Source of the DNA: a virus
Reading direction: 5' to 3' (one strand)
Length of the DNA: 43,814 nucleotides
IMG/VR virus record: IMGVR_UViG_3300020176_000028
Span: 1 to 43,814 of that record
Part shown: positions 16,869-34,302 of the stretch, in pieces
Position numbering within the stretch: the stretch's first letter is position 1
How the letters are laid out: every line of letters starts with the position of its first letter
Made by a program: the position numbers and the translations under genes
The notes under the pieces: generated by a model
Databases searched by the model: none
The model's input: the letters and a program-made list of their open reading frames with translations, nothing else
Told to the model about the DNA's origin: nothing

Positions 16869-16932
16869 TGGTAAAATCACCCCACCAGGCTAGAGTCGCC
16901 CTCGAAGACGGGAGTAGTGCCCCGCTGCCTGG
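16869..16932 (+). promoter_or_regulatory. Extended -10 promoter and 5' RNA element, copy 1
   Basis: TGgTAAAAT at 16869-16877 should start an RNA near 16884. The RNA would begin with a closing stem CCAGGC/GCCTGG (16885-16890 and 16927-16932), containing GGCTAG, CTCGAA and a CGGG/CCCG hairpin with loop AGTAGTGC. The same plan occurs at 32999 and 34250. The element ends 41 nt before the ATG of the next gene. Confidence 0.5.
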
Positions 16933-16973
16933 CACCCCTAACGCACTGGATCAACAGCACAAAGGATCAAGAC

Positions 16974-17300
16974 ATGAGCAAGATTGATAACGGCGGGCCG
17001 GCGTTTCCGGTCCCACTGAATCAAGGCCAAATATGGAACGAAGTAGGGCCGTGTGATGGCATGACCCTGCGCCAGTACGCCGCCATCAAGCTGCGCGTAC
17101 CAGACAGCGGAACCGACTGGCTTGACGAGATGATCCGCAAGTCGGCGCGTGACGAATTTGCAGCCAAGGCCCTGGCTGCCGTCATCACTGGGGCAATGGC
17201 AGATGGATCGCAACTAAGCGAAGGTGTCGATGTGATTTTTTCCCGCGTTGCATACATGATGGCCGACGCCATGCTGCACGCACGGGAGGCCAACCAATGA
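16974..17300 (+). CDS. Phage protein of the DNGGPAFP type
   Basis: A 108-residue protein with the frequent phage pattern Gly-Gly-Pro-Ala-Phe-Pro near the start, Gly-Met-Thr-Leu-Arg-Gln-Tyr-Ala-Ala in the middle, and Met-Met-Ala-Asp-Ala-Met-Leu near the end. AAAGGA lies 7 nt before the ATG, which was preferred over an upstream ATG at 16917 inside the RNA element. It is the first gene of the terminase transcript. Function unknown. Confidence 0.8.
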   Translation: MSKIDNGGPAFPVPLNQGQIWNEVGPCDGMTLRQYAAIKLRVPDSGTDWLDEMIRKSARDEFAAKALAAVITGAMADGSQLSEGVDVIFSRVAYMMADAMLHAREANQ

Positions 17301-17518
17301 GCGCCCTTGACACCCAAGTGGCAGGCACCCACTACAAGAACCGCGCCATCCAGCCGGTCGAGTACATCCACGCCAACGGCCTTGGCTTCTTGGAAGGCTG
17401 CATCATCAAACGCATCACCCGCTGGCGCGACAAGGACGGCTTTGCCGACCTGCAAAAGATCAAGCACGAGGTGGATCTGCTGATCGAGCTGGAATCCCGC
17501 AAAGCGGCCCAAGCGTGA
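17297..17518 (+). CDS. DUF3310 family protein
   Basis: A 73-residue protein with the DUF3310 pattern: His-Tyr-Lys, Gln-Pro-Val-Glu-Tyr-Ile, Gly-Phe-Leu-Glu-Gly-Cys-Ile-Ile-Lys-Arg-Ile-Thr-Arg-Trp-Arg-Asp-Lys, then Asp-Leu-Gln-Lys-Ile-Lys-His. The family is widespread in phages and may bind nucleotides, but its role is not known to me. It overlaps the previous gene by ATGA. Confidence 0.85.
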   Translation: MSALDTQVAGTHYKNRAIQPVEYIHANGLGFLEGCIIKRITRWRDKDGFADLQKIKHEVDLLIELESRKAAQA

Positions 17519-17522
17519 TGGG

Positions 17523-17903
17523 ATGCACCAGCTCTGCCTCGACCTACCCCACCACGGCCTACGGGCCGTCAGGCGGTCTACCGATGACGAAGATCGCCTG
17601 GTGGTGGTCGAGTCTGTGGCGCCGCCTGCGCTTGCCAAGCCTGGGCCTTCGTCAGTGTTTGACCTTGCTGCTATGAGCATCAAGCGCGTCAAGCTGTCCA
17701 GCGAGTCCAAGAGGCCGCACAGCCGGGTGGTCGAGCTGCCGGGCGGTCGCCGGGTGCGCACCGTGATCCATGAGAGTGATACCGAGGAGTGGCAGGAGCG
17801 GGAGTTCCAGCGACGGGCGCGGCAGGTGGTGCCTAGGCCTGGGGCGCATATGGTGACTTTGAGTGAGAAGCAGCGCAAGTTGACGGGAGGCAAAAATGGC
17901 TAG
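17523..17903 (+). CDS. Protein of unknown function before the terminase
   Basis: A 126-residue basic protein whose C-terminal half (Ser-Ile-Lys-Arg-Val-Lys-Leu onward) is rich in Arg and Glu and probably helical. There is no clear ribosome-binding site at 17523, and an internal ATG at 17673 is a possible start giving 76 residues. It overlaps the small terminase gene by 8 bp. Its place suggests a packaging accessory, without sequence proof. Confidence 0.55.
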   Translation: MHQLCLDLPHHGLRAVRRSTDDEDRLVVVESVAPPALAKPGPSSVFDLAAMSIKRVKLSSESKRPHSRVVELPGGRRVRTVIHESDTEEWQEREFQRRARQVVPRPGAHMVTLSEKQRKLTGGKNG

Positions 17904-18447
17904 GCCATCGAAGTTGACGCCGGAGCAGTGGGTAGAGGTTGAGCGCCGCCTGCCAACAGAGGGGGCCAGCGCCCTAGCCCGCGAGTTCGGCATCAGTGAA
18001 GCTGGAATACGCAAAAAGTTCGGATCGAACCAAACAATAGGTTCGAAAAGTTCGAAGGTTCGAGAAGTTGCCCACAAGCTGGCAGAAGCTCAGACCGCCC
18101 TTGCAGAATTGCCTGTCCGTCAGCAGTACATAGCCGTCAGCCTAGCCGAGAAGCTGCGCAACATCAGCGACAACCTTGCCAGCGCCGCACAGTACGGCGC
18201 ACAGACCGCGCACCGCCTGAGCGCCCTGGCGAACAGCGAGGTCGCCAGGGTCGATGACGCCGAGCCCCTGGCGTCTGTCGAAAACCTGAAAGGCGTGGCG
18301 GCTCTCACCAAGTTGGCAAACGAGTCAGCGACGATTGCGCTCAATCTGTTGTCGGCCAACAAGGACCGCATAAAGGAGATCGAGGACACCGAGCGCACCA
18401 AGGCTATTCCTTCAGGCTTGGATCACTTCTATGGCCAGCAAGGGTAA
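17896..18447 (+). CDS. terS: Terminase small subunit
   Basis: A 183-residue protein. The N-terminus (Ser-Lys-Leu-Thr-Pro-Glu-Gln-Trp, then Ala-Leu-Ala-Arg-Glu-Phe-Gly-Ile-Ser-Glu-Ala-Gly-Ile-Arg-Lys) is a helix-turn-helix for DNA. The rest is helical and ends in Ile-Pro-Ser-Gly-Leu-Asp. GGGAGG precedes the ATG. Its 3' end overlaps the large subunit gene by 17 bp, the normal order. It should recognise the packaging site and load the large subunit. Confidence 0.85.
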   Translation: MARPSKLTPEQWVEVERRLPTEGASALAREFGISEAGIRKKFGSNQTIGSKSSKVREVAHKLAEAQTALAELPVRQQYIAVSLAEKLRNISDNLASAAQYGAQTAHRLSALANSEVARVDDAEPLASVENLKGVAALTKLANESATIALNLLSANKDRIKEIEDTERTKAIPSGLDHFYGQQG

Positions 18448-19804
18448 GCCAACACTGAACCCGGTGCTGCGCCCGTTCTGGACCGCGCCTGCTCGCAACC
18501 GGGTGCTGTACGGAGGTCGAGCATCAAGCAAGAGCTGGGACGCCGCAGGCTTCGCAACCTACCTAGCTGACAACGCCAGGCTGCGCGTTCTGTGCGTGCG
18601 TCAGTTCCAAAACCGCATCAGCGAGTCGGTCTATGCCCTGCTGAAGATCCAGATTGAGCGCTTCGGCTTGATGAGCCGCTTCGACATCCAGCGCGACAAG
18701 ATTTACAGCCGTGTGACGGGATCTGAGTTCATGTTCTACGGCCTGTGGCGGTCGATTGATGAAATCAAATCGCTGGAGTCCATCGACATCCTGTGGATTG
18801 AGGAAGCGCACAGCCTGACAGAGGAGCAGTGGAAGGTTTTAGAGCCGACGATCCGAAAGGCTGGCTCCCAGGTTTGGGTGATATTCAACCCGAAGCTGGC
18901 GACCGACTTCGCCTACAAGCGCTTCGTCGTCAGCCCACCGCCAAACACCATCGTCAGAAAGATCAACTACGACGAAAACCCGTTTCTGTCCGAGACGATG
19001 CTGGGCATCATCGAGGCGGCCCGCAAGGAAGACCCTGACGAGTTCGCGCACATCTACGGCGGAGAGCCGATGCAGGATGACGACAGCGTGATCATCAAGC
19101 GGTCGTGGATCATGGCGGCAGTTGACGCCCATAAAGCGCTGGGCCTGAGTGCAGTCGGCAAGAAGCGCATGGGCTTCGACATTGCCGACAGCGGGGCCGA
19201 CAAGTGCGCGACCGTTTACGCCCATGGCTCCATCGTGATGGATGCCGACATGTGGAAGGCGGGAGAGGATGAGCTGCTGCAGAGCTGCACTAGGGTCTAT
19301 CACGCGGCGCGCACAGTGGATGCTGCTATCACCTACGATTCTATCGGAGTCGGGGCCAGCGCCGGCGCGAAGTTCGGCGAAATCAACGAGGCCCAGGCGG
19401 TCGGCAGGCCGGTGCAGTACGCGAAATTCAACGCTGGCGGGGCTGTGTGCCGACCAGAGGCCATCTATGCCCACAGCACGAAGAACAAGGACATGTTCAG
19501 CGGCGTCAAGGCCCAGGCCTGGTGGATGCTGGCCGACCGATTCCGCAACACATTCAGTGCTGTGACCAAGGGCGAGAAGTACGCCGAAGACCAACTGATT
19601 AGCCTATCTAGCGACCTGCCGCACCTTGAGATGCTGATTGATGAGCTATCGACGCCGCGCAAGCGCTTCGATGCCAATGGGCGCGTAAAAGTGGAAAGCA
19701 AGGAAGAACTTGCCAAGCGCGGAGTTGCTTCGCCGAACCTAGCCGATGCCATCGTCATGGCTTTTGCACCAGAAGGCGGGCAGCAGACGGGGATATTTAC
19801 ATGA
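18431..19804 (+). CDS. terL: Terminase large subunit (PBSX type)
   Basis: A 457-residue packaging motor. The ATPase domain has Gly-Gly-Arg-Ala-Ser-Ser-Lys-Ser (Walker A-like, about 29-36) and Ile-Leu-Trp-Ile-Glu-Glu-Ala-His (Walker B and catalytic Glu). The nuclease domain has Gly-Phe-Asp-Ile-Ala-Asp, Ile-Thr-Tyr-Asp-Ser-Ile-Gly-Val-Gly-Ala, and a late Asn-Leu-Ala-Asp-Ala. The sequence fits the PBSX-family large terminase. It pumps DNA into the prohead and cuts it. No cohesive-end site was seen, which suits headful packaging. Confidence 0.92.
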   Translation: MASKGKPTLNPVLRPFWTAPARNRVLYGGRASSKSWDAAGFATYLADNARLRVLCVRQFQNRISESVYALLKIQIERFGLMSRFDIQRDKIYSRVTGSEFMFYGLWRSIDEIKSLESIDILWIEEAHSLTEEQWKVLEPTIRKAGSQVWVIFNPKLATDFAYKRFVVSPPPNTIVRKINYDENPFLSETMLGIIEAARKEDPDEFAHIYGGEPMQDDDSVIIKRSWIMAAVDAHKALGLSAVGKKRMGFDIADSGADKCATVYAHGSIVMDADMWKAGEDELLQSCTRVYHAARTVDAAITYDSIGVGASAGAKFGEINEAQAVGRPVQYAKFNAGGAVCRPEAIYAHSTKNKDMFSGVKAQAWWMLADRFRNTFSAVTKGEKYAEDQLISLSSDLPHLEMLIDELSTPRKRFDANGRVKVESKEELAKRGVASPNLADAIVMAFAPEGGQQTGIFT

Positions 19805-19816
19805 TGTGCGGTCTCC

Positions 19817-19824
19817 TGTAGAAT
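19817..19824 (+). promoter_or_regulatory. Promoter-like TG-TAGAAT before the terL-portal RNA
   Basis: TGTAGAAT lies 9 bp before the first stem of the structured stretch. The same hexamer recurs as TGgTAGAAT at its far end (20108). A start near 19831 would put the RNA 5' end at its first helix. Confidence 0.4.
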
Positions 19825-20108
19825 CCACAACGATGGTGGCGCTCAGTGCTGACGCACAATAGATGAGGCCACCATTATCAGCGCTTCATCCGACGCGGAC
19901 GGCGAAAGCCAGAATATCGGATGACCATCACGCATGCGGATTGCAGCGCCGGGTCGAATCCTGAGACACCGAGACCGCTGAAGGTCAGTCCGCAGCCGTG
20001 ATGGTGAGGGCAATGCTGGGGGTTACCGGCACCCAATGAGTGAAGCGCAGTACCAGAGACGGGTGGAGCGGCCGCGAAGCCCCGAAGGTCTGAATCTGCG
20101 TGCGCCCT
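19825..20108 (+). ncRNA. Structured noncoding RNA between terL and portal
   Basis: About 285 nt without a credible gene but with several perfect helices: 19833-19840 with 19868-19875 (8 bp, ATGGTGGC/GCCACCAT); 19887-19893 with 19917-19923 (7 bp, holding a GGC-GAAA-GCC hairpin); 19924-19932 with 19997-20005 (9 bp); 19936-19942 with 19987-19993 (7 bp, one GU), enclosing GACC/GGTC at 19973-19986; and 20007-20011 with 20104-20108. The second and third helices abut and could stack. Such nested long-range pairing points to a folded RNA. I do not recognise a known class. Confidence 0.65.
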
Positions 20109-20116
20109 GGTAGAAT
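20108..20116 (+). promoter_or_regulatory. Extended -10 box before a terminator
   Basis: TGgTAGAAT lies 21 bp before a strong terminator. If used, it makes an RNA of only about 40 nt that carries GCCACCAT, the same 8-mer as the 3' arm of the first helix of the upstream RNA. Confidence 0.4.
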
Positions 20117-20137
20117 ATGGGCCACCATCAACACACA

Positions 20138-20165
20138 AGCCCTGACCTCAACTCAGGGCTTTTTT
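20138..20165 (+). terminator. Terminator before the portal gene
   Basis: The stem AGCCCTGA/TCAGGGCT (8 bp) with a 7-nt loop and a T run. It is preceded by CACACA like the terminators at 24039 and 35619. It separates the upstream transcripts from the head genes. Confidence 0.85.
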
Positions 20166-20170
20166 GCGCC

Positions 20171-20181
20171 TACCTATCATC
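20171..20181 (+). promoter_or_regulatory. Late restart motif, copy 1
   Basis: TACCTATCATC lies 5 nt before the portal ATG and directly after a terminator. TATCAT matches five of six -10 positions. There is no Shine-Dalgarno sequence before the ATG, so transcription may begin at the start codon. Confidence 0.5.
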
Positions 20182-20186
20182 GCACC

Positions 20187-21512
20187 ATGACCACATTCGT
20201 CGCCAACACCTACGACATCCAGATGGCCCGCTACGAGTTGGCGCAGTCGCTCGGGGCACTGGACGCCAAGCGGCCCGCAGCATGGCAACAGTACGGCTAC
20301 CCCACCGACATCACGTTCGGCCATATGCTCGCAGCCTACGAGCGCCACCCAGCCGCTCACGGCGCAGTGCATCGTCTGCTTGACAAATGTTGGCAGGAAC
20401 TGCCGCGCATCAAGTCGCCGGCCAGCGATCAGGAAACACCCTGGGAGCAGCGCGTCAATGCCGTACTCAAGAGCGTGAGCGCATGGGCCAAACTGCGCGA
20501 CTTTGACCGGCGCAACATGATCGGGCGCTACGCCGCGCTGATCTATCGTGTGGCTGATGGCAAGGCCTTGCGTGAGCCCTTGGACCGTGCCGCGTGGCTG
20601 GTGGACCTGGTGCCGGTCTACGAAGATCAGATAACTGTGACGCGATGGGACGCCGACCAAGAAAGCCAAACCTACGGTCAGCCGCTCATGTATCAATTCA
20701 AGGCTCGCCGAGTCACCAACGGCGACCAAGGGCAGCCTGTTGAGCAGGTTGACGTTCACCCCAGCCGGGTGCAGATCCTGGCCGAGGGCAGTGTGGGCGA
20801 CATGTTCGACGGTGTGCCGCTGCTGCGCGCTGGTTTCAACGCCTTGGTAGACCTGGAAAAGATCAGCGGCGGCAGTGCAGAGAGCTACCTGAAGAACAGC
20901 GCGCGCACCCTAGTTTTCCAGTACGACAAAGACACCGCTGTGCAGGCCATCGGCGAGAATGGCGAGACGACCAGCGTCAGGCAAGCCCACGAGGAGCAGG
21001 CCCGATCGCTCAATCGCAACCAGGACGCCAGCATTGTGATGCAGGGCGGAACGGCTTCGACGCTGCAGACCACGACGCACGATCCGAAGCCGTCGTTCGA
21101 GGTGGCGGCGAACCTGTTCGCTGCTTCGGTGCGCTTGCCTTTCAGCATCCTGTTCGGACAACAGACCGGCAGGCTGGCCAGTGACGAGGACAAGGCGGAC
21201 TATGCCGCCCGCGCCAAGGCAAGGCAGCAGAATGAGCTGACACCCATGCTGGAACAGTTCGTTCGGCGCATGCAGGCAGCTGGCATCATCGAGGCGGGCG
21301 AGTTTGAGGTGGAGTGGCCCGATGTCGCAGCACCAAGCGAGGACGAAAAGGTCAAGCGCCTGAAGGACTATACGACCGCCATGCGGGAGGCTTTCGGGGC
21401 TGGCATCCAAGGCTTGTTTGATGCTGACGAGCTGCGGCGCGTGGTGGGGTTTGAGCCGCTGCAGCCGGTTGACATGCCGACTGAGGGCGTGGGGCCGGAG
21501 GTGCTGGCATGA
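20187..21512 (+). CDS. Portal protein (DUF1073 type)
   Basis: A 441-residue protein that should form the dodecameric ring through which DNA enters the head and to which the tail attaches. Typical features are Tyr-Gly-Tyr-Pro and Phe-X-X-Met-Leu-Ala-Ala-Tyr near the N-terminus, His-Pro-Ser-Arg-Val, and Pro-Phe-Ser-Ile-Leu-Phe-Gly-Gln-Gln-Thr-Gly-Arg-Leu-Ala-Ser, a strong signature of this group, followed by a helical tail. The start is 20187, as the upstream frame runs through the terminator. No ribosome-binding site is present. Confidence 0.88.
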   Translation: MTTFVANTYDIQMARYELAQSLGALDAKRPAAWQQYGYPTDITFGHMLAAYERHPAAHGAVHRLLDKCWQELPRIKSPASDQETPWEQRVNAVLKSVSAWAKLRDFDRRNMIGRYAALIYRVADGKALREPLDRAAWLVDLVPVYEDQITVTRWDADQESQTYGQPLMYQFKARRVTNGDQGQPVEQVDVHPSRVQILAEGSVGDMFDGVPLLRAGFNALVDLEKISGGSAESYLKNSARTLVFQYDKDTAVQAIGENGETTSVRQAHEEQARSLNRNQDASIVMQGGTASTLQTTTHDPKPSFEVAANLFAASVRLPFSILFGQQTGRLASDEDKADYAARAKARQQNELTPMLEQFVRRMQAAGIIEAGEFEVEWPDVAAPSEDEKVKRLKDYTTAMREAFGAGIQGLFDADELRRVVGFEPLQPVDMPTEGVGPEVLA

Positions 21513-21892
21513 CCAAGGCTGCATCAATTACCCGGCTCCGCTTCTGCCCCATCTGGTCGGCGCTCTCCATGGGCCTGTCGATCTACGGAGCCGCTACAGC
21601 GCCATCTGATGACTGGCTTGCCTTCAATCTCGCCTGCACACTGCTGAATTGGCTGCTGTGCCTGTCGTGGATGCGCAACATCGTGCGCGAGCTGATGCGC
21701 CGTGAGATGCTGCGCAGGCAGCGAGTGCTGGCTTTGCGCTGCCAGGCCTATCACCACGTTTTCAAGGACAGGAGTCAGTCGGAAAGCCGGCGCAGCATGT
21801 TGACCAGTTACGCATGGCTTGGCGCAGTCCGGGCGCTTGATGAGCTGAAGTCGCTGCGCGTGGCCCTTGACATCCATCGAGAGACAGCATGA
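21509..21892 (+). CDS. Small membrane protein in the head operon
   Basis: A 127-residue protein with hydrophobic stretches at about residues 12-28 and 36-54 (Trp/Leu-rich), then a basic helical tail (Arg-Arg-Glu-Met-Leu-Arg-Arg-Gln-Arg). It overlaps both the portal and the head morphogenesis genes by ATGA junctions, so it is made with them. A membrane protein here is unusual. It might act in exclusion or lysis timing, but no family is recognised. Confidence 0.6.
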   Translation: MTKAASITRLRFCPIWSALSMGLSIYGAATAPSDDWLAFNLACTLLNWLLCLSWMRNIVRELMRREMLRRQRVLALRCQAYHHVFKDRSQSESRRSMLTSYAWLGAVRALDELKSLRVALDIHRETA

Positions 21893-22800
21893 ACCCCATC
21901 ATCCCCGGCACCCCAGCCGACCGCACCGGCACCCTACCAATCCTGCGCCGTGCCGTGCGCGAGATCAACCGGCGATGGGCTGGCCTGCAAGCCGATGTGC
22001 TCGCCATCTTCAGTGCCATTCCGGTCTACGCCATCAACGCGGGCGAACAGGAGCTAGTGCGCTACGGCCTGACCGCCGAGCAGCTTCAGCGCCTATCAAC
22101 CGAGCTGCAAGCCGCAGTGGAGCGGTGGATAGCGGACGGGCGCGACCCGGCGAATCTGTTTTGGTGGTCGCAGTATGTGGCGGAAACGCAACAGCTAGGG
22201 ACTGCGCAAACCGTGGCGAACCTGGGCAACCTGTCGCCAGCGTATGCTGCCGCTCGGTCGATTGAAATGGTGATCTATTCCGAGCCCTACATTCAGCGGC
22301 TCGCCATGGCGCAGTACAAATCCTATGAGCATTGGACCGGCCTTGCAGCCCAGCAGAAGTCGGAGCTGGCGCAGATCATCGGGCAAGCCGTGGTCGATGG
22401 GCGCAACCCCCGCGCTGTGGCTGAGACCATCAAGGAGCGGCTGGGAGTGAGTCTAAGCAAGGCGAAAAGCTATGCGCAGACTGATGTGACCGACACCCTA
22501 CGACAAGCCCGCTGGGCTGAGTCCGAGCAAGCGCAAGAGGACTTCGGCATTCGCATCGGGCAGCTGTGGACTTCGGCGTTGTTGCCGACGACAAGGCCAT
22601 GGCATGCTTCACGTCATGGGCGGATTTACACGACTGCCGAGGTGCAGGCGTTCTACGGCCAGCGCGGGAATGTTTATGCGTGTCACTGTTCAACCACCGA
22701 GGCACTGCTAGACGACGATGGCAAGCCCATCTTGACGCCGAAGCTGAGGGCCAAAATGCAAGGCGAGAAACTGAAATGGGACGCTGACAACCTGGCTTGA
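21889..22800 (+). CDS. Head morphogenesis protein (Mu gpF-like)
   Basis: A 303-residue minor head protein. The C-terminal third has the Mu-F signature: Ala-Tyr-Ala-Gln-Thr-Asp-Val-Thr-Asp-Thr, then Trp-Thr-Ser-Ala-Leu and Arg-Pro-Trp-His-Ala-Ser-Arg-His-Gly, and a Cys-His-Cys near the end. These residues may bind a metal. It follows the portal, the usual order, and probably sits inside or near the connector. Confidence 0.85.
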   Translation: MNPIIPGTPADRTGTLPILRRAVREINRRWAGLQADVLAIFSAIPVYAINAGEQELVRYGLTAEQLQRLSTELQAAVERWIADGRDPANLFWWSQYVAETQQLGTAQTVANLGNLSPAYAAARSIEMVIYSEPYIQRLAMAQYKSYEHWTGLAAQQKSELAQIIGQAVVDGRNPRAVAETIKERLGVSLSKAKSYAQTDVTDTLRQARWAESEQAQEDFGIRIGQLWTSALLPTTRPWHASRHGRIYTTAEVQAFYGQRGNVYACHCSTTEALLDDDGKPILTPKLRAKMQGEKLKWDADNLA

Positions 22801-22803
22801 CCG

Positions 22804-22812
22804 TGGTATGAT
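22804..22812 (+). promoter_or_regulatory. Extended -10 promoter of the Bro-N segment
   Basis: TGgTATGAT overlaps the end of the head morphogenesis gene and has an extended -10 form. The start would fall near 22819, at the beginning of the structured leader of the antirepressor-like gene. Confidence 0.5.
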
Positions 22813-22818
22813 CGCCTT

Positions 22819-22923
22819 GTCGGTTTTGATATTGCGTGTACCAGACGCTACATATCAAAGCCGAAAGGCTTACCGCCATCAGAACGTGACTGGTACTCGC
22901 GTTTCTGGTGGCGGTTTTCTTTT
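22819..22923 (+). ncRNA. C4-like antisense RNA leader
   Basis: A folded leader before the Bro-N gene: TTTGATAT/ATATCAAA (22825-22832 and 22852-22859) enclosing GCGT/ACGC, then AGCC-GAAA-GGCT (22859-22870), then a 13-bp helix (22872-22884 with 22903-22915) ending in a T-rich run. The order and the GCCGAAAGGC hairpin resemble the C4 RNA of phages P1, P7 and relatives, which controls antirepressor synthesis. The last helix contains sequence just before the ribosome-binding site of the Bro-N gene. The class assignment is from memory. Confidence 0.55.
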
Positions 22924-22932
22924 GGAGATTTC

Positions 22933-23469
22933 ATGTCATCCATCATCCCCTTCAGTTTTTCGCACAATCAAGTGCGTGTCATCGTCAGTGAGGCAGGAGA
23001 CCCGTGGTTTGTCGCCCAAGACGTTTCTGCAGCGCTGCAGTACAGCGAAGCTTCGGCAATGACGCGCACCCTTGACGACGACGAAAAGGGTCTGCAGACT
23101 GTGCAGACCCCTGGCGGAAAGCAAGAGCTTGTGACCATCAACGAATCCGGCCTGTATTCGGCGATCCTTAGGAGTCGTCGCCCCGAAGCCAAGCGCTTTA
23201 AGAAATGGGTCACGTCCGAGGTTTTGCCAAGCATCCGCAAGACCGGTATGTACGCCGTGCAAACGCCCAGCGTCCCAGGTGACCTCTACACCCGCGCACT
23301 GAAAGCCGAGAAAGACGAGGCCGCATCCATGGCGCTGGCATCCGTCGCGGGCAAGTCACTGTCGCTGCGTCGCAAGGAAAAGCGCGTCCTGGCGCAGATC
23401 GTCGGTTTGCTGCGTGAGGAGGTGCAATTGAAGTTGACGCTGGCGTCTATTGATGGGGGTGTGAAATGA
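22933..23469 (+). CDS. Bro-N domain antirepressor-like protein
   Basis: A 178-residue protein with a Bro-N domain (about 8-105): Val-Arg-Val-Ile-Val, Pro-Trp-Phe-Val-Ala-Gln-Asp-Val, Leu-Asp-Asp-Asp-Glu-Lys-Gly, Thr-Ile-Asn-Glu-Ser-Gly-Leu-Tyr-Ser-Ala-Ile-Leu-Arg-Ser-Arg, and Phe-Lys-Lys-Trp-Val-Thr-Ser-Glu-Val-Leu-Pro-Ser-Ile-Arg. The C-terminus is a helical domain. Such proteins act as phage antirepressors or DNA-binding regulators. GGAG precedes the ATG. It lies in an accessory segment with its own promoter, RNA leader and terminator. Confidence 0.88.
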   Translation: MSSIIPFSFSHNQVRVIVSEAGDPWFVAQDVSAALQYSEASAMTRTLDDDEKGLQTVQTPGGKQELVTINESGLYSAILRSRRPEAKRFKKWVTSEVLPSIRKTGMYAVQTPSVPGDLYTRALKAEKDEAASMALASVAGKSLSLRRKEKRVLAQIVGLLREEVQLKLTLASIDGGVK

Positions 23470-23708
23470 GCGAAAAACAGACTGAGGCGCGCCGACTGGC
23501 TGATGAAGTCGATGAAGTCGCAAAGATTTACCCAGACATGGCGGAGGTATCAGCCGAACTGCGCCGCCTGGATGCTGAAAACGAGGCACTGCGCGACGTG
23601 CTTCGATGCATTGCGAATGTTGGCGAGCCGTGGCAGCGCGACTACCTGATTCGGGAAATTCAGGCCGCAGCCGAGGCCGCCATCACAAAAGCAGAGCCCA
23701 CAAAATGA
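23466..23708 (+). CDS. Small phage protein (EARRLADEVDE type)
   Basis: An 80-residue helical protein similar in plan to the genes at 3204 and 34993: Glu-Ala-Arg-Arg-Leu-Ala-Asp, then Ala-Glu-Leu-Arg-Arg-Leu-Asp-Ala-Glu-Asn-Glu-Ala-Leu, then a C-terminal Ala-Ala-Ile-Thr-Lys-Ala. It is coupled to both neighbours by ATGA overlaps. Function unknown. Confidence 0.75.
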   Translation: MSEKQTEARRLADEVDEVAKIYPDMAEVSAELRRLDAENEALRDVLRCIANVGEPWQRDYLIREIQAAAEAAITKAEPTK

Positions 23709-24019: not shown

Positions 24020-24038
24020 CACCCGACCCACCCACACA

Positions 24039-24060
24039 AGCCCGCCCAGCGGGCTTTTTT
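24039..24060 (+). terminator. Terminator closing the Bro-N segment
   Basis: The stem AGCCCGC/GCGGGCT with a CCA loop and six Ts, preceded by CCACACA. It is nearly identical to the terminator at 35619. It isolates the accessory genes from the protease and capsid operon. Confidence 0.9.
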
Positions 24061-24064
24061 CATG

Positions 24065-27506: not shown

Positions 27507-27507
27507 C

Positions 27508-27873
27508 ATGGCAATGCTTCACAAATTCATGACGGATGGCGGGTCCGAGGTGCTGCCTACCGCTGGCGGGCCGTACTTCACCGAGGACATGTCGGCGGAC
27601 TGGCCGCGCGGGCAGGTCTACATCGAGTTCTACAGCGACGCAGCGGGCACCGTACCAGTAACCCCAACTGGCGGCGAGGTCTACGCTTACGGCACCCCGC
27701 TGGGCACCGTGTACATGAAGGCCGGCAACGTCAACGGCATTCAGGCTGCCAATGCGGGCACAGAGCCCATGTACGAGCCGCCAATGTTCGATGGTTGCGT
27801 CATCAAGGGTAAACTGGAATTTTCCGGCGTCACTGGCGCTCCGTATGCCCGCGCAATCTTCTGGAGGTCATGA
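27508..27873 (+). CDS. Structural protein in the connector region
   Basis: A 121-residue beta-rich protein (Val-Tyr-Ile-Glu-Phe-Tyr, Gly-Thr-Val-Tyr-Met-Lys, Ile-Lys-Gly-Lys-Leu-Glu-Phe) with many Gly and Tyr. It could be a neck or head-surface protein. It lies between two connector-type genes, and its stop overlaps the next start. No specific family is recognised. Confidence 0.6.
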   Translation: MAMLHKFMTDGGSEVLPTAGGPYFTEDMSADWPRGQVYIEFYSDAAGTVPVTPTGGEVYAYGTPLGTVYMKAGNVNGIQAANAGTEPMYEPPMFDGCVIKGKLEFSGVTGAPYARAIFWRS

Positions 27874-28241
27874 TGTACCCCGATTCAGCCCAGCGCGCAC
27901 AAGTCCAATCCTACGCTCGGATCTACCACGAGGGCGTCTCTTTAGTGACGCCTGGTAGGCCATCGCTCAAGTCGGTGGCCATCCAGAACCGGGACAACAA
28001 GATCATTTATTTCTGGCATGGCCGGATGCCCAGCGGCACCGATGGCCAGGGTCCTTTTTTGCCGGTCAACCCTGTCGAATGGACAGCCCAGCAAAAGCTC
28101 GACGCTGCAACGATGATGCTGACCTATGGCGAGGCAATCGCGGCGGGACAGACCTACGAGCCCCGCGTGGCCCAGACATCGGCTCTTTACAGCTATGTGA
28201 CCGTGGGCACCGCAGTCGCGCACGTCAAGGTGGGCAACTGA
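27873..28241 (+). CDS. Structural protein in the connector region
   Basis: A 122-residue protein with aromatic strands (Ile-Ile-Tyr-Phe-Trp-His-Gly, Tyr-Ser-Tyr-Val-Thr-Val-Gly) and a helical stretch around Gln-Gln-Lys-Leu-Asp-Ala-Ala. Two adjacent ATGs exist (27870, 27873). I chose the second because GGAGG is better spaced. It pairs with the preceding gene and may form part of the neck. Function not recognised. Confidence 0.55.
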   Translation: MYPDSAQRAQVQSYARIYHEGVSLVTPGRPSLKSVAIQNRDNKIIYFWHGRMPSGTDGQGPFLPVNPVEWTAQQKLDAATMMLTYGEAIAAGQTYEPRVAQTSALYSYVTVGTAVAHVKVGN

Positions 28242-28242
28242 C

Positions 28243-28584
28243 ATGAGCGCAGCAGCACGATGGAGCCTGACCAATACGGCTACGCATTGGGCGCAGGCTG
28301 GGTTTGACGACTGGACCGGCGCACGCACATGGGCCGCACCTGTTGCGTTTGCCTGCGACTACAAGGCCGAGGCCAGGACGATGACTGATGCCAACGGCCA
28401 GGTGTTCGTCAGTCGCCAGGTACTGTACACCGAGCGCGCGACCGTGCAACCGGGTGACATGGTGTTGATCGGCACCCATGCCGGCGCTGACCCCGTAGCC
28501 GCTGGCGCTGCCGAGGTGCGCATTGTGACTCGGTACGCTGATACTTTTGATCAGTTCGCCGACGATTTCATGATCGCCACCTGA
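28243..28584 (+). CDS. Head-tail joining protein, probable
   Basis: A 113-residue beta-rich protein: Phe-Ala-Cys-Asp-Tyr-Lys-Ala, Gln-Val-Leu-Tyr-Thr-Glu-Arg-Ala, Gly-Asp-Met-Val-Leu-Ile-Gly, and Arg-Ile-Val-Thr-Arg-Tyr. Its length, strands and place before the gp10-like gene fit a stopper protein that closes the connector. This is by analogy only. Confidence 0.6.
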   Translation: MSAAARWSLTNTATHWAQAGFDDWTGARTWAAPVAFACDYKAEARTMTDANGQVFVSRQVLYTERATVQPGDMVLIGTHAGADPVAAGAAEVRIVTRYADTFDQFADDFMIAT

Positions 28585-28585
28585 C

Positions 28586-28939
28586 ATGGCTACCAGTAAG
28601 CGCATGACCAACCGCCTGCCGCAGTTCATCGGTCAGGTAGAGCAAAAGGCCGCGCGCGCCATGACACAGGCACTGATCCTGGGGGCGTCCGAGGCCAGCG
28701 TCATGACGCCTGTTGATACCTCGACGCTGCTCAATAGCCAATATCGCAAGGTTGACAAGGACGGCACCAAAATTGTCGGCACAGTGGGCTACACGGCAGA
28801 GTACGCCAAGTACGTTCATGACCCGAACGTCAAGCAACGATTCCGGCGCTCGACAGCAGAGAAACTTTTCTTGAAGAAGGGTTTTGAGGAAGCCGAGCCG
28901 AATATACGGGCCGTCATCACTGGCGCAATCAAGACCTAA
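28586..28939 (+). CDS. HK97 gp10-like tail completion or neck protein
   Basis: A 117-residue protein with the gp10-like pattern: a helical N-terminus, Val-Met-Thr-Pro-Val-Asp-Thr-Ser-Thr-Leu-Leu-Asn-Ser (the conserved Pro-Val-Asp-Thr-Gly-like segment), Val-Gly-Thr-Val-Gly-Tyr-Thr-Ala-Glu-Tyr-Ala-Lys-Tyr-Val, and a helical end. Such proteins complete the neck or join the tail. Confidence 0.8.
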   Translation: MATSKRMTNRLPQFIGQVEQKAARAMTQALILGASEASVMTPVDTSTLLNSQYRKVDKDGTKIVGTVGYTAEYAKYVHDPNVKQRFRRSTAEKLFLKKGFEEAEPNIRAVITGAIKT

Positions 28940-28944
28940 TCAGC

Positions 28945-28956
28945 CTCCCTATCATT
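28945..28956 (+). promoter_or_regulatory. Late restart motif, copy before the tail terminator gene
   Basis: CTCCCTATCATT lies 6 nt before ATG 28963, five bases after the stop of the gp10-like gene. No terminator precedes this copy, and no ribosome-binding site separates it from the start codon. Confidence 0.55.
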
Positions 28957-28962
28957 GCCCAC

Positions 28963-29313
28963 ATGAGCCAAGCCGCCGACGCCATTCGCAACCTGATCAC
29001 GCCACTTCTAACGGGGTGGCGAGTCCAGTTCGGCCGGTGGGTCGATGGCCTGCCGACTGACCGTTTCGCAGTGATTCGCCCTGTTGGCGGCGTTCCTTCT
29101 ACGCTTGTCAGGCGTCCGCAGTTTTCCCTGATGCTGATCGGCGCAGTCAATGACCCGGCAACCACTGCTGACGGCAAGGCCGGCGAGATTGTGCAGGCTA
29201 TGCGCGCCAGCAATGGCTCGATTGTCGTGATGACAGCTGGCGAACCTGTTTTCTTTTCAACCGACGATGGCCGTCCGGTATTCGAGATAGCCGTTTCCAC
29301 CATCACCAACTAA
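28963..29313 (+). CDS. Tail terminator protein, probable
   Basis: A 116-residue protein with an N-terminal helix (Ala-Ile-Arg-Asn-Leu-Ile-Thr-Pro-Leu-Leu), a Phe-Ala-Val-Ile-Arg-Pro strand, Phe-Ser-Leu-Met-Leu-Ile-Gly-Ala, and a final Phe-Glu-Ile-Ala-Val-Ser-Thr. The alternating helix and strands and the place between neck and tube genes fit a gpU-like terminator that caps the tail tube. Confidence 0.65.
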   Translation: MSQAADAIRNLITPLLTGWRVQFGRWVDGLPTDRFAVIRPVGGVPSTLVRRPQFSLMLIGAVNDPATTADGKAGEIVQAMRASNGSIVVMTAGEPVFFSTDDGRPVFEIAVSTITN

Positions 29314-29323
29314 AGGATCAATC

Positions 29324-29776
29324 ATGAGTGCATATGACGGCAAGACCTGCGCGGTCAGCTTCTCCGCCACTGCCGAGGGCACGCTGCCCACAGTCTGGAC
29401 CACGCTCGGCATGATGCGCACCAAGTCCATCGCTGGCACCTGGGACACCGCCGATTCGACCGCTGATTCGACTGCTGATTCGGCCAAGACCGTGATTGCC
29501 ACGCGCCGTTCGTTCACCTTCTCTGGCGACGGCGTTTCGTACGATGACGCTGCCTACAACCAGCGCACCCTCAAAAACCACTTCTACAACCCTGGAGTCA
29601 CGACCAGCAATCAGCCGAAAGCCTGGTTCAAGCTGACGTTTGCCAGCGGCGAGAGCTTCACTGGCCCGTTCATGATCACATCGTGGACCGACGACGCGCC
29701 CGAAGCCGATGTGATGACGTGGAGCATCGAAGCCGTCAGCAATGGCAATGTGACCTACGACGATGGCGTGATCTGA
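29324..29776 (+). CDS. Major tail (tube) protein
   Basis: A 150-residue beta-rich protein. It has Lys-Ser-Ile-Ala-Gly-Thr-Trp-Asp near residue 30, Phe-Thr-Phe-Ser-Gly-Asp-Gly, and a final Met-Thr-Trp-Ser-Ile-Glu-Ala-Val-Ser-Asn-Gly typical of tube subunits. AAAGGA precedes the ATG. A tandem repeat of 12 nt (about 29453-29490) encodes Ala-Asp-Ser-Thr three times, probably a surface loop. It stacks as rings to form the tail tube. Confidence 0.8.
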   Translation: MSAYDGKTCAVSFSATAEGTLPTVWTTLGMMRTKSIAGTWDTADSTADSTADSAKTVIATRRSFTFSGDGVSYDDAAYNQRTLKNHFYNPGVTTSNQPKAWFKLTFASGESFTGPFMITSWTDDAPEADVMTWSIEAVSNGNVTYDDGVI

Positions 29777-30315
29777 TGCTAGTCGAGTGCGGCTTTGTCA
29801 GGGCGCAGACTGAGGATGGGACGGAATACACGTTCACGCCCTCGTTTGCGCGCATTGCATCACTCGGCAACCCCGCGCAGATCGTGCAGCTCTACGCCGA
29901 CCTGCACGGCTTTCGCGCATCGTATGCAGCCGGGTATGTACTGACTGTCCTGTGCGACCAAGATGACCCCACGCCTCTGATAGGCTGGCTAGACGAGGGC
30001 GGCATGTGGCATAGCGGCGCAATGCCGGTGCATGAGCAGGTGCTGATCGCGCGCCATCTAATGCAGCACGGCATCATCGGCAAAGCCAAGCCCAGCAAGG
30101 GCGGCGGGCAATACGCGCAGGAATTCCACGCTGCGGAATACATTGCGGCGGCGCGGGTGCATCTGGGCCTAAGCAGCGCGGACGCCGAGGCGCTGTCAAT
30201 GACGGAATTTCAGACGGCGTTTGAGATGAAGTTCCCGGAAGCGAAGGCCAAGGAATTGCCATCGCGCGAGGAGTACCGTGAGCTGATGGCGAAGATTGAG
30301 GGTAAGCGCAAATGA
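29776..30315 (+). CDS. Tail assembly chaperone, probable
   Basis: A 179-residue protein between tube and tape-measure genes, the position of the gpG-type chaperone. The sequence is partly helical, with Ala-Glu-Tyr-Ile-Ala-Ala-Ala-Arg and a Lys-rich end. Its start overlaps the tube stop (TGATG). No slippery sequence or second frame was seen, so there may be no programmed frameshift. The function is inferred from position. Confidence 0.6.
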   Translation: MLVECGFVRAQTEDGTEYTFTPSFARIASLGNPAQIVQLYADLHGFRASYAAGYVLTVLCDQDDPTPLIGWLDEGGMWHSGAMPVHEQVLIARHLMQHGIIGKAKPSKGGGQYAQEFHAAEYIAAARVHLGLSSADAEALSMTEFQTAFEMKFPEAKAKELPSREEYRELMAKIEGKRK

Positions 30316-32855
30316 GCACGAACGTCGGCGGCATTGAATACACCCTGACCCTGGATACGGCAGGGCTGATAGCTGGCGAGCGCAAGGCCAGGCAAAGCCT
30401 GCAAAAAGTCGGTGACGAAGGCGACAAGCTGCAGTCGCGCATGTCTGGCATTGCTGCTGCGATTTCTGCTGCCATATCCGCCATCGCCATTGATGGGCTT
30501 GTCTCAAAAATCGTCGCAGCACAGCGCCAATTCGACGTGCTGTTCGCCAGTCTCAAAACCATGACGGGCGGCACCGAGCAGGCGACGGCGGCATGGGAGA
30601 AGCTGGTCGATTTTGCCGCGCAGACACCGTACAGCCTGGAGCAGGCCGTGCAAGGATTCACCAAGCTGAAAGCTCTTGGACTGGACCCGTCTATCAGGTC
30701 TATGACCAGCTTCGGCAATACGGCATCGGCCATGGGCAAAGACCTGATGCAGATGATCGAGGCGGTAGCCGACGCCAGCACGGGTGAGTTTGAGCGCCTA
30801 AAGGAATTTGGCATCAAGTCCAAGGCCGAAGGCGACAAGGTGACGTTCACTTTTCAGAACGTCAAGACCACGGTACAAAACAACGCTCAAGCCATCACCG
30901 AGTACCTGACAAAGATCGGCGAGGTCAACTTCGGCGGCGCCATGTCTGAGCGCATGAAAACGCTCGACGGCGACATCAGCAACCTGCAGGATTCCATGCA
31001 GGCGCTGTATCTGTCCATCGCGCAGTCCGGCTTCGGTGACGCCATCGCTCAAGGTGTGCGCGCTGCGACAGAGGCTATTCAGCAGGCGACTACCAGCATC
31101 AAAGAAGGCGAGCTGACCGAATACTTCGCCACGCTCAAGGAATACAGCGGGGCGGCAGAAGTGGCTGTCGTGTCGCTGGCTGGCGCAATCGCTGGCCGAC
31201 TGGTGGCGGCACTGGCGGCAAGCGCAGCGCAAGCATACGCGACCGCTGCCGCAATGGGCGCTGCGACAGTGGCGACGCGCGGATTCACGGCGGCGCTGTC
31301 GCTGCTGGGCGGTCCTGTTGGCGTCGCCATCACGGCGCTGGGCCTGCTTGCGATGAACTGGGACAAGATCTCAGGCAGCGCCAAGACAGCAGCGCAGATT
31401 TCCGAAGAGTCTGCGACACGCATTGCCGCAGCGCAAAAGAAGGCATCAGACCGGGCATCCAAGGATCTGGCGACCCAGCTATCTGAAGCCGAGCGCGGCC
31501 TGAAGTCGGTGCAAGCCAGCATGGCCCAGGCGCAAAAGCCCGGCATGTACGGCAACAAGGCTTCGGATTCCGTCATCCAAGGCTACCAGGATCAGGCCGA
31601 CGCCTACCTACAGTCCATCGCCGACATCAAGGCCGCACAAGCATCGCTCGGAGGTGGTGCGGGACGAGGCAAGATCAACCCCGAGCTGGTCAAGGGTCCG
31701 ACAGCTACCGAGCCGGACAAGCCAAAGGGCAGCAAAAAGCAGCCGTTCGATCAGATCGGCTACTTGGCCGAAATGCGAGAGCAGGCAGCGTCAGAGTACG
31801 ACAAGATCGACATTGTTGAGCAGGAAGCGTTGCGCAAAAACAACGCTCTACTCAAGCGCAAAGAGATCAGCACGGCAACCCATGCCGAGGCTGTCAAGCT
31901 GATTGGTGAGCGCGCAGCGCGTGAGCGTGCCGAGCTGGCCGACAAGAACCTGACCGACATGATCCGTGAGATCGAGGATGAAAACCGCGTCCGTGAGCAG
32001 GCAGCACGGGAAAAGGCGCAGCGCGAGGAAGAGCAGGCGCGCAATCGTCAGGTGGCTATGCAGGCTATCGCTGACGCCTCTGGCGATCCGGTTGAGCGTA
32101 TCAGGCTGGAAGAAGAAGCCAAGCTGGCTATCCTTGAGGAATACCGGCTGCGAGACATCGCTAATACCCAGCTCTATGAAGATGCCAAGCTAGCCATCAA
32201 GGAGCGGGCCGCGCAGCAGGAGCGCGACATTCAGAATGCACTGAATATCCAGTCGCTGCAACTCATGCAGAGCGGCGCTGACATGGCCTACGACATCCTA
32301 TCCAAGGCCGGGAAAGAGCGCACCGCGCTAGGCAAGGCGTTATTCCTGGCGAGCAAGGCGTTAGCGGTCGCCGAGATCATCATGAATACCGAGATCGCTG
32401 CTACCAAGGCTGGCGCGCAGCTTGGCATATTCGGTATCCCAATGGCGACCATGATCCGCGCCCAAGGCTACGCCAGCGCCGGTATGGTCGCAGGCATGGC
32501 GGTCGCTGATGCCGTGGGCGGTCGGCAGTACGGCGGTCCCGTATCGGCCGACAGCCTCTACCGTGTGAACGAAAATGGCGCACCCGAAATGTTCACCGCT
32601 GCAAACGGCAGCCAGTACATGTTACCCACGACGAACGGGCGCGTGACGGCTGCTGACAAGGTGGGCGGCGGCGCTCCATCGGTCAACATCGTGGTCAACA
32701 ACACCGCACCAGGCACGGTGGCCAGCGCCAGCTATGATGACCAGAGCCGCACTGTGTCGATTGCCGTCACAGAGGTGGCGAACCAGATCCGCACCAACAC
32801 CGGGCCGGTGTGGTCGGCTATGCGCGGGGCGACGAACGTGCAGGCGAGGATGTGA
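30312..32855 (+). CDS. Tail tape measure protein
   Basis: An 847-residue protein that sets tail length. The N-terminus has Leu-Thr-Leu-Asp-Thr-Ala-Gly-Leu-Ile-Ala-Gly-Glu-Arg, then a long Ala-rich helical core with a Phe-Ala-Ala-Gln-Thr-Pro-Tyr-Ser segment near residue 100, and hydrophobic stretches near 280-345. Lys/Glu-rich coiled coil follows, and the end carries Gly-Gly-Pro-Val-Ser and Asn-Val. It is short for the class, so the tail should be fairly short. Confidence 0.88.
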   Translation: MSTNVGGIEYTLTLDTAGLIAGERKARQSLQKVGDEGDKLQSRMSGIAAAISAAISAIAIDGLVSKIVAAQRQFDVLFASLKTMTGGTEQATAAWEKLVDFAAQTPYSLEQAVQGFTKLKALGLDPSIRSMTSFGNTASAMGKDLMQMIEAVADASTGEFERLKEFGIKSKAEGDKVTFTFQNVKTTVQNNAQAITEYLTKIGEVNFGGAMSERMKTLDGDISNLQDSMQALYLSIAQSGFGDAIAQGVRAATEAIQQATTSIKEGELTEYFATLKEYSGAAEVAVVSLAGAIAGRLVAALAASAAQAYATAAAMGAATVATRGFTAALSLLGGPVGVAITALGLLAMNWDKISGSAKTAAQISEESATRIAAAQKKASDRASKDLATQLSEAERGLKSVQASMAQAQKPGMYGNKASDSVIQGYQDQADAYLQSIADIKAAQASLGGGAGRGKINPELVKGPTATEPDKPKGSKKQPFDQIGYLAEMREQAASEYDKIDIVEQEALRKNNALLKRKEISTATHAEAVKLIGERAARERAELADKNLTDMIREIEDENRVREQAAREKAQREEEQARNRQVAMQAIADASGDPVERIRLEEEAKLAILEEYRLRDIANTQLYEDAKLAIKERAAQQERDIQNALNIQSLQLMQSGADMAYDILSKAGKERTALGKALFLASKALAVAEIIMNTEIAATKAGAQLGIFGIPMATMIRAQGYASAGMVAGMAVADAVGGRQYGGPVSADSLYRVNENGAPEMFTAANGSQYMLPTTNGRVTAADKVGGGAPSVNIVVNNTAPGTVASASYDDQSRTVSIAVTEVANQIRTNTGPVWSAMRGATNVQARM

Positions 32856-32870
32856 TGTCAAATGACCAGG

Positions 32871-32978
32871 CTTGCCATCGCTTGAAACGGAGGCAAGATT
32901 GTCCGTTGCGGGGGTTCCCATATCGGGCTCACACGGGTTTATGCGTTTCAAACGGATAAACCACCACTTGGTGAAGCG
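32871..32978 (+). other. Structured stretch after the tape measure gene
   Basis: Several pairings lie in this gene-free 108 nt: CTTGCC/GGCAAG (32871-32876, 32892-32897), AACGG/CCGTT (32886-32890, 32903-32907), GGTTTAT/ATAAACC (32936-32942, 32956-32962), TTGAAACG/CGTTTCAA (32882-32889, 32944-32951), and CGCTT/AAGCG. Some exclude each other, so it could switch between folds. It sits just before the promoter of the KilA-N segment. No U tract marks it as a terminator. Confidence 0.4.
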
Positions 32979-32983
32979 AGTGA

Positions 32984-33048
32984 TGTAAAATCAAGGATCA
33001 GGGCTAGGTTAGCTCCCGAAATGCGGCCTCGTGAACCGCACCGCCCTG
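32984..33048 (+). promoter_or_regulatory. Promoter and 5' RNA element, copy 2
   Basis: TGTAAAAT (32984-32991) would start an RNA at about 32998. It begins with the closing stem CAGGGC/GCCCTG (32999-33004 and 33043-33048), followed by CTAGG, GCTCCCGAA and a TGCGG/CCGCA hairpin with loop CCTCGTGAA. Its plan matches copy 3 almost base for base. It ends 37 nt before the KilA-N ATG. Confidence 0.55.
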
Positions 33049-33085
33049 AGCCCATCATTCACGCCCTCATCACGAAGGATTCAGT

Positions 33086-33850
33086 ATGGCAAGCGCCATC
33101 ATTACCCGCACCTACCAAGACCACGCCATCAGCTACGACGCTAGCGGATGGTTCAATGCCACGCAAGCCGCCGCCAGGTTTGATAAAGAGCCAACGGCAT
33201 GGATTCGTCAATCTGACACTATTGAGTACATTGCCGCACTGTGCGAGCGCAACGGCAAATCAGGTTTTGTGACAGAGTTCAACAAAATCAAGGACTTAGA
33301 CAGCAAAAGCAGCAAGGCTAGGTCATCTCTCTTGAGGCTAGCGAAAGACAGCGGCCTAGTCAAGACCAAGGCTGGATCGCCAGAAAATGGCGGTGGGACG
33401 TGGCTGCATCCCAAGCTTGCTATCCTGTTCGCCCGCTGGCTGGATGTGGACTTTGCCATCTGGTGTGATGAGCAGATCGACGGCATCGTGCGAGGCAAAG
33501 ACGACTGGCGCAAGCTGCGCCACGCTGCCGCCAGCTCGAACATTGTGCTTAACGGCATCATCCAAGAGACGCGCTCCGAGGCCGGCAAAGAAACCGGCGC
33601 CGTCCACTACATGAGCGAGGCGAAGTTGGTGAACTGGGCCGCTTTCGGCGAGTTCGCAGGCGTCGAGCGCGACAGCTTGACCCGTGAGCAGCTAGACCTG
33701 TTGGCGCACCTTGAAACGCGAAACGGCATCATGTTCGCGCGCGGCCTGAGCTACGACGAGCGCAAGGCGCGGCTACCGGAGATTGCTGAGGCTTGGCAGG
33801 AGCGGCGGATTGCTAAGATGGCGGCGAAGCTGGAAGGGGGCGCGGCATGA
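33086..33850 (+). CDS. KilA-N domain protein, antirepressor-like
   Basis: A 254-residue protein with a KilA-N domain (about 1-110): Ile-Ser-Tyr-Asp-Ala-Ser-Gly-Trp-Phe-Asn-Ala-Thr-Gln-Ala-Ala, then Trp-Ile-Arg-Gln-Ser-Asp-Thr-Ile-Glu-Tyr-Ile, Gly-Gly-Gly-Thr-Trp-Leu-His-Pro-Lys-Leu-Ala, and Phe-Ala-Arg-Trp-Leu-Asp. The C-terminal part is helical. AAGGA precedes the ATG. KilA-N proteins bind DNA and often act as phage antirepressors or inhibit host division. It opens an accessory segment in the late operon. Confidence 0.88.
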   Translation: MASAIITRTYQDHAISYDASGWFNATQAAARFDKEPTAWIRQSDTIEYIAALCERNGKSGFVTEFNKIKDLDSKSSKARSSLLRLAKDSGLVKTKAGSPENGGGTWLHPKLAILFARWLDVDFAIWCDEQIDGIVRGKDDWRKLRHAAASSNIVLNGIIQETRSEAGKETGAVHYMSEAKLVNWAAFGEFAGVERDSLTREQLDLLAHLETRNGIMFARGLSYDERKARLPEIAEAWQERRIAKMAAKLEGGAA

Positions 33851-34212
33851 GCGCGCTGCCAGATGACGTGCGGGACGCACTTCTCAGGATCGCCAAAAGA
33901 TGGCTCCTGAACAACTACATTGGCGGCAGAAAGAAGTTGGAGCCCTGGAGCGACCATTACGCCCACTTGACCAGCATCAAATCTTTCGACCTTCCGGGAG
34001 ATCGAGCTAGGAACCTTCGCCGACTCACCAAGCTTACCACCGATGGTGTTCTTGTTGAGAAGCCAAATTGCATCCGCGTCCGTGCATTCACAGCCCCGCG
34101 TCATGCGCTCGACGAAATCGGCCGGCAGGCCGTCCGAGAGTGGGAGGCTGTTGGGTACCGAGTTGGTGAGATGATGGGTGAAATCAACAAACCGAAAGAC
34201 GGTGCCGCATGA
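33847..34212 (+). CDS. Accessory protein of unknown function
   Basis: A 121-residue protein with a winged-helix-like pattern (Leu-Leu-Arg-Ile-Ala-Lys-Arg-Trp-Leu-Leu; Leu-Arg-Arg-Leu-Thr-Lys-Leu-Thr-Thr-Asp-Gly-Val-Leu-Val-Glu), which could bind DNA. It is coupled to the KilA-N gene by ATGA. Its last residues, Gly-Ala-Ala, come from the junction sequence shared by genes in this segment. Confidence 0.55.
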   Translation: MSALPDDVRDALLRIAKRWLLNNYIGGRKKLEPWSDHYAHLTSIKSFDLPGDRARNLRRLTKLTTDGVLVEKPNCIRVRAFTAPRHALDEIGRQAVREWEAVGYRVGEMMGEINKPKDGAA

Positions 34213-34235
34213 GGACTGAAAAACTCTCAAAACCC

Positions 34236-34302
34236 TGATACACTGACACTTCCGGGCTAGGCTTGCTCCCGAAAGGCGGACTAGTTCACCGCTTGCCCGG
34301 AA
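34236..34302 (+). promoter_or_regulatory. Extended -10 promoter and 5' RNA element, copy 3
   Basis: TGaTACACT (34236-34244) leads into the closing stem TTCCGGGC/GCCCGGAA (34250-34257 and 34295-34302, 8 bp), then CTAGG, GCTCCCGAA and a GCGG/CCGC hairpin with loop ACTAGTTCA. The loop CTAG could pair with the 5' CTAG. It ends 35 nt before the ATG at 34338. Confidence 0.55.

Follow-up and report, generated by a model that had tools for sequence, protein, structure and literature searches.

Translation of phage genes is in several described cases controlled by RNA structure at the 5' end of the message. In the T4-type homing endonuclease genes I-TevI, segB, and mobE, an RNA hairpin sequesters the ribosome-binding site (RBS) and controls translation (PMC2988022), and in the Gifsy-1 prophage the IsrK-orf45-anrP leader is a 5' RNA with two alternative structures, one of which is translationally silent (PMC4825925). 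Translational riboswitches, in turn, join a structured 5' domain to mutually exclusive pairing that takes in the Shine-Dalgarno (SD) region. Here, we analyzed a window of 43,814 nucleotides (nt), positions 1 to 43,814 of IMG/VR virus record IMGVR_UViG_3300020176_000028, which derives from a tailed phage with terminase, tape-measure, and primase/helicase genes (Pfam and phrog matches) and which carries three copies of a structured RNA element. These copies are divergent homologues of int-alpA RNA (Rfam RF02996), and each is probably a cis-acting, bistable translational 5' leader of one mobile cargo gene, a reading that draws on the sequences of several hundred family members compared with one another.

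The T4 RBS hairpins and the IsrK leader are thus precedents, although neither has the anatomy of the int-alpA leader. What is shared with T4 is the translation of phage homing endonucleases under the control of RNA structure over the RBS. In T4, however, a late promoter is sited so that late transcripts lack the hairpin, whereas the promoter of int-alpA elements, marked by its -10 box, lies upstream of the whole element; in addition, the int-alpA leader, unlike the T4 hairpins, offers two alternative partners for one loop. The IsrK leader is unlike it in both structure and mode of action. IsrK was also considered as an identity for the window copies, being a prophage leader with alternative structures, and was ruled out, with no match of the isrK model in the window up to E = 10. 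Translational riboswitches differ in that the genes behind int-alpA elements have no metabolic theme, and a ligand role for the present element would be hypothetical.

At the Rfam gathering thresholds, there were no matches in the window. Below threshold, int-alpA RNA was the only plausible Rfam match, and it was found at all three copies, with scores of 34.8 bits for copy 3 (E 4.6e-5), 24.5 for copy 1 (E 0.0054), and 23.6 for copy 2 (E 0.036) and the model aligned over its full length (1-71) in each. As this model was built independently, its agreement with all three copies argues that they are not chance resemblances, and it is the independent test of the window copies, a small alignment omitting them having misplaced the third helix. 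None of the three reaches the gathering score of 35.8, while 12 of 18 scanned loci among relatives fetched by motif exceed it (36-50 bits); because the copies fall under the cut-off while such close relatives pass, they are divergent homologues and not members by the Rfam criterion. The core GGCTAGNNNNGCTCCCGAA, used as our own search pattern on viral contigs, gave at least 120 stretches (locus counts throughout are lower bounds), and int-alpA matches reach Planctomycetes, Acidobacteria, and Firmicutes. The window copies and RF02996 have in common a three-way junction of a closing helix (P1) and two hairpins (P2 and P3), along with the CUAG and CGAAA junction strands, the latter replaced by CGAAG in copy 1. 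Our searches found no literature on the element sequence or on RF02996; one paper among those searched names the family, in a table, and none describes a function for it. The RNA itself is therefore a known orphan family. The lambdoid form of the element is present in 50 of 5,426 complete Escherichia coli genomes, with no RNA annotation in any of those listed, and no functional clue was obtained from these copies.

Several lines of comparison support the three-way junction. The sequence-only reading, made before any database search, had proposed one fold at three places, and exact matches to the core GGCTAGNNNNGCYCYCGAA indeed number just three in the window, at 16888, 33002, and 34255. Copies 2 and 3 are identical at 23 of 26 positions (33001-33026 versus 34254-34279), as had been counted, and P1 diverges between copies yet is paired in every one: CCAGGC/GCCTGG in copy 1, TCAGGGC/GCCCTGA in copy 2, and TTCCGGGC/GCCCGGAA in copy 3. 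Such compensatory change proved to be strong across the family. In 58 diverse sequences with fixed columns, P1 and P3 showed 237 two-sided changes against 90 in shuffles (score 0.444 versus 0.119), and the signal was lost when the partner strand was slid. P1 extends by 2.77 base pairs (bp) against 0.77 ± 0.09 in permutations, and RNAalifold recovers the same three helices unaided. P2 was nearly invariant in the 58 sequences, mainly since the search pattern fixed most of it; elsewhere it varies compensatorily, with GCCCGACGGGGC replacing GGGUAGCUCCC in a variant set, GGA/UCC in a distant member (L300), and other forms among hits of the Rfam model. A covariance model of the 58 sequences gave the three window copies 45-54 bits, whereas no other place in the window exceeded 14.8, a partly circular comparison in that these copies are among the 58. 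In single-sequence folding, copies 2 and 3 had a minimum other than the expected fold, and stability was not unusual in any copy; as such folding is unsupportive, the evidence we use for the fold is comparative only.

The element also holds a fixed position between promoter and gene. Across 107 unique regions upstream of the element, -10-like hexamers are most frequent at -18 to -13 relative to GGCTAG, a position that puts the transcription start at the P1 5' strand. With gene starts called by a simple score, the median distance from GGCTAG to the start codon is 83 nt (middle half, 79-85), a value obtained without 83 nt as a target. In the window, the distance from the end of the -10-like box (TAAAAT, TAAAAT, and TACACT for copies 1, 2, and 3) to the element is 5-7 nt and that from the element to the start codon is 35-41 nt, just as first described. 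The proposal of a promoter-proximal, structured 5' leader, possibly riboswitch-like, would have failed had position or pairing varied; instead, promoter and start-codon distances are fixed and the helices covary strongly, which supports it. In Pseudomonas phage vB_PaS_IME307 (L412, 32862-33425), the annotated gene start precedes the RNA element. Translation probably starts instead some 83 nt after GGCTAG, with the annotation running through the leader.

While the junction fold and the leader position had been recognized from the letters alone, the half of the structure downstream of P1, the link to an Rfam family, and the pairing of a loop with the ribosome-binding region had gone unnoticed. 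Side-by-side comparison of relatives showed that a segment just past P1 (S4) is complementary to the P3 loop (L3), with a sequence that differs from element to element. The L3-S4 score was at least 5 in 62 of 67 unique loops, against a maximum of 19 in 200 permutations of loops and tails (mean score, 5.92 versus 3.78 ± 0.11), bearing in mind that such permutations count elements with different loops as independent though some are related. The pairing recurred in sets that had played no part in forming the idea: 40 of 50 in bacterial genomes (permuted maximum, 16) and 39 of 43 in the P2-variant viral set (about 12 permuted), while members found in genomes by the Rfam model had two L3 sites in 26 of 26 cases (permuted maximum, 20). 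The second site (S5) is complementary to L3 in 41 of the 67 (permuted maximum, 21) and in 26 of the 50 bacterial elements (permuted maximum, 17). Two nonoverlapping L3 sites were present in 131 of 170 elements, compared with 32 ± 6 in permutations; the gap between S4 and S5 has a median of 8 nt, and S5 ends about 7 nt ahead of the start codon. The energies of the two pairings are nearly equal (-6.8 and -6.2 kcal/mol).

S5 is itself set in a hairpin, P4, formed by pairing of the S4-S5 spacer with the segment 3' of S5, so that S5 and the SD are presented together. Its stem scores 4.90 against 4.04 ± 0.065 in permutations, and L3 scores 4.63 against the P4 loop, compared with 3.04 ± 0.065 permuted. 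Clear examples are AAATACTT-cggg-AGGTATTT (L027), TCAACTT-tcgg-GAGTTGA (L115), and GATAACTT-gggg-AGGTTATC (L198), and distant covariance-model members (L300, L297, L296, and L210) follow the same plan. Across the family, P4 therefore has the character of an RBS-covering hairpin, weakly so in window copy 2, and the choice between L3-S4 and L3-S5/P4 would amount to a riboswitch-type expression platform tied to the SD. Rfam's structure for int-alpA has neither the L3-S4/S5 pairings nor P4, and we did not find the pseudoknot, the SD hairpin, the double partner site, or the tie to homing endonucleases described in the Rfam model or the papers searched.

As one loop has two near-isoenergetic partners, one of them the SD-bearing loop, we favor a bistable leader. 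Transcription would begin at or beside P1, making the element the extreme 5' end of the mRNA, and P1, P2, and P3 would form the three-way junction, leaving L3 with two competing partners of near-equal strength: S4, a few nucleotides past P1, and S5, which sits in the P4 apical loop. As P4 is predicted to carry the SD in its loop or 3' strand, an L3-S5 loop-loop contact would lock P4 and block ribosome binding. Pairing of L3 with S4, which could form first during transcription, would withdraw L3 and leave a weak P4 that a ribosome may open, giving the permissive form. Such a switch may hold costly mobile genes to low or timed expression, and it might be driven by a ligand or protein sensed at the junction or by folding kinetics alone. 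Comparative evidence shows the helices, both L3 partners, P4, the start-codon distance, the promoter position, and the gene classes; from these we infer that the two L3 pairings would exclude each other in the cell, which of them would be ON, and that translation would be the regulated step.

Some observations weigh against this reading. S4 and S5 are short (4-8 bp), a P4 stem score of 5 is attained in just 83 of 170 elements, and P4 is weak in copy 2. The L3-S4/S5 matches of the window copies, each taken alone, have p values of 0.01-0.25, and the weight given to them comes from the family-wide comparison. Start choice in the P4, two-site, and Rfam-hit tests favored about 83 nt, and the loop tests used P3 stems picked by pairing, a selection of which the fixed-column covariation test is free. 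Nucleotides fixed by search patterns were also excluded from statements on conservation.

The same data bear on other explanations. A terminated or processed int-alpA RNA might instead act in trans, pairing via L3 with the start region of its own or other mRNAs. In favor of this, the Rfam type of the family is "Gene; sRNA" (small RNA), many members and the Rfam consensus have a U-rich stretch 3' of P1, the copy 2 L3 has a 7-bp match in the copy 3 leader, and IsrK is a prophage leader that works both in cis and in trans (PMC4825925). However, a trans-acting RNA would require neither a start codon at fixed distance nor two L3 partners that covary in cis with each element, and the window copies lack a terminator-like U run, making this explanation improbable. 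Equally doubtful is a role as a 5' mRNA stabilizer or barrier to 5' nucleases, built from the junction and the L3-S4 pseudoknot. Flaviviral-type exonuclease-resistant RNAs (xrRNAs) block 5'-3' exonucleases, and the int-alpA element, lying at the 5' end of the mRNA, resembles them in topology only (a closing helix, two hairpins, and a loop pairing 3' of the closing helix); S5, P4, and the fixed start-codon spacing would be left unexplained.

A special case of the bistable leader is a riboswitch in which the three-way junction serves as a ligand-binding aptamer. The layout is that of an aptamer plus expression platform, the Rfam consensus, which is independent of our search patterns, is most conserved at CUAG and CGAAAAG around the junction, and the junction is conserved although P2 swaps between quite different sequences. 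Yet the downstream genes share no metabolic pathway and junction conservation may merely serve the fold, so we hold a ligand to be a minority possibility, if a far stronger one than trans action or 5' protection. A ligand may yet await discovery. The covarying downstream half argues that int-alpA regulates translation in cis, as opposed to being a small RNA gene, and it makes this role directly testable by point mutations.

In the window, all features lie on the plus strand. For copy 1, the -10-like box TAAAAT (16872-16877), preceded by TGG in the manner of an extended -10 and in line with the family-wide peak, leads into the junction at 16885-16932 (46.9 bits with the 58-sequence model), made up of P1 (16885-16890/16927-16932), P2 (16893-16895/16901-16903), and P3 (16909-16912/16921-16924). 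L3 (AGTAGTGC, 16913-16920) is complementary over 5 bp to S4 (GCACT, 16943-16947), in keeping with the family permutation test. The P4 hairpin GATC/GATC (16949-16968), weak alone and supported by the family test, would enclose both S5 (GCAC, 16957-16960) and the SD (AAAGGA, 16961-16966). The gene that follows (16974-17300), between the primase and terminase genes, is phrog_2201-like and of unknown function.

Copy 2 has its -10-like box TAAAAT at 32986-32991 and its junction at 32998-33049 (45.2 bits), with P1 at 32998-33004/33043-33049, P2 at 33007-33008/33016-33017, and P3 at 33022-33026/33036-33040. L3 (CCTCGTGAA, 33027-33035) is complementary over 6 bp to S4 (TTCACG, 33058-33063); in the region 33065-33079, S5 (TCACGA, 33070-33075) abuts the SD GAAGGA and the weak P4 consists of CCT (33065-33067) and AGG (33076-33078). 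A KilA-N domain protein is encoded behind it (33086-33850; Pfam KilA-N, 1e-17). In copy 3, the box TACACT (34239-34244), preceded by TGA, is followed by the junction at 34250-34302 (54.4 bits), comprising P1 (34250-34257/34295-34302), P2 (34260-34261/34269-34270), and P3 (34276-34279/34289-34292). Here, L3 (ACTAGTTCA, 34280-34288) faces S4 (GAACT, 34311-34315; 5 bp), and the putative P4 (CCTT/AAGG, 34318-34330) carries S5 (TGAAC, 34322-34326) as part of its loop, and its 3' strand includes the SD AAGG. Its gene (34338-34712) encodes a phrog_5086 protein of unknown function (1.8e-24). The 7-bp match of copy 2 L3 to the copy 3 leader mentioned above (TTCACGA, within 34302-34316) makes cross-talk between these two copies via the copy 2 loop possible.

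The genes behind the element are consistent with cargo. Among 97 first genes, 17 were DUF1376 (primosomal/replication), 11 HNH_3, and 4 NUMOD4, and others included further HNH, endonuclease VII-like, Rha, and KilA-N genes; GIY-YIG endonucleases are also among the cargo classes. Neither DUF1376 nor HNH_3 was among the top Pfam families of 98 control open reading frames (ORFs) from the same contigs, and phrog_374 (HNH) was found 12 times behind the element compared with twice in control ORFs. In bacterial genomes, integrases and HNH/NUMOD genes were present among the genes that follow, most of which had no Pfam match. Pseudoalteromonas phage TW1, which is annotated, has the element directly 5' of an HNH endonuclease gene, beside head genes. 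Copies 2 and 3 of the window lie in a block (32856-35600) that separates the tape-measure gene from the next conserved tail gene. In a relative without the block (L247), the tape-measure match ends at 7149 and the homologue of the tail gene (g35601) starts at 7154; as the two genes adjoin there, a cargo insertion is the best reading of the block. The element was near the terminase in few of 80 terminase relatives, and relatives sought via a 97-amino-acid tail protein yielded a single locus.

Copy number bears on the suggestion that the element is an antitermination or RNA polymerase-binding leader akin to put or nut sites. Its place directly at the transcription start and its three copies in this phage would suit that role. 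However, most of 50 phage contigs carry one copy (a few have two or three), typically ahead of one cargo gene, where put or nut sites would be expected in main early operon leaders, and covariation ties the variable parts to the SD region, a link for which antitermination has no need. The suggestion is thus not supported, and we regard it as very improbable; we found no paper on put-type antitermination. More broadly, and tentatively, at somewhat less than even odds, int-alpA RNAs may form a large class of bistable translational switches that spans phyla and belongs to mobile DNA, in which the loop picks either a decoy or the SD loop and the conserved junction senses some signal. They would then be a portable promoter-plus-switch of phage homing endonucleases, replication starters, integrases, and antirepressors. 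Through the tie of int-alpA to free-standing homing endonucleases and other phage cargo, what keeps such genes quiet in the phages that carry them becomes open to experiment.

Other mobile elements and hosts were also encountered. One phage contig (L114) carries, about 2 kb from its int-alpA element, a RAGATH-18 RNA (3144-3205, minus strand; 76.9 bits), the guide-RNA type of IS607 TnpB. The genome of the planctomycete Roseimaritima (G056) has four int-alpA matches (L135, L422, L428, and L431), at least three of which precede related genes resembling tyrosine recombinases. Additionally, in metagenome-assembled genomes of Saprospiraceae (L141) and Planctomycetota (L194), the element precedes a nearly identical gene (MA..YP..QNTFV), possibly for a capsid protein, which would be an unusual, noncargo context.

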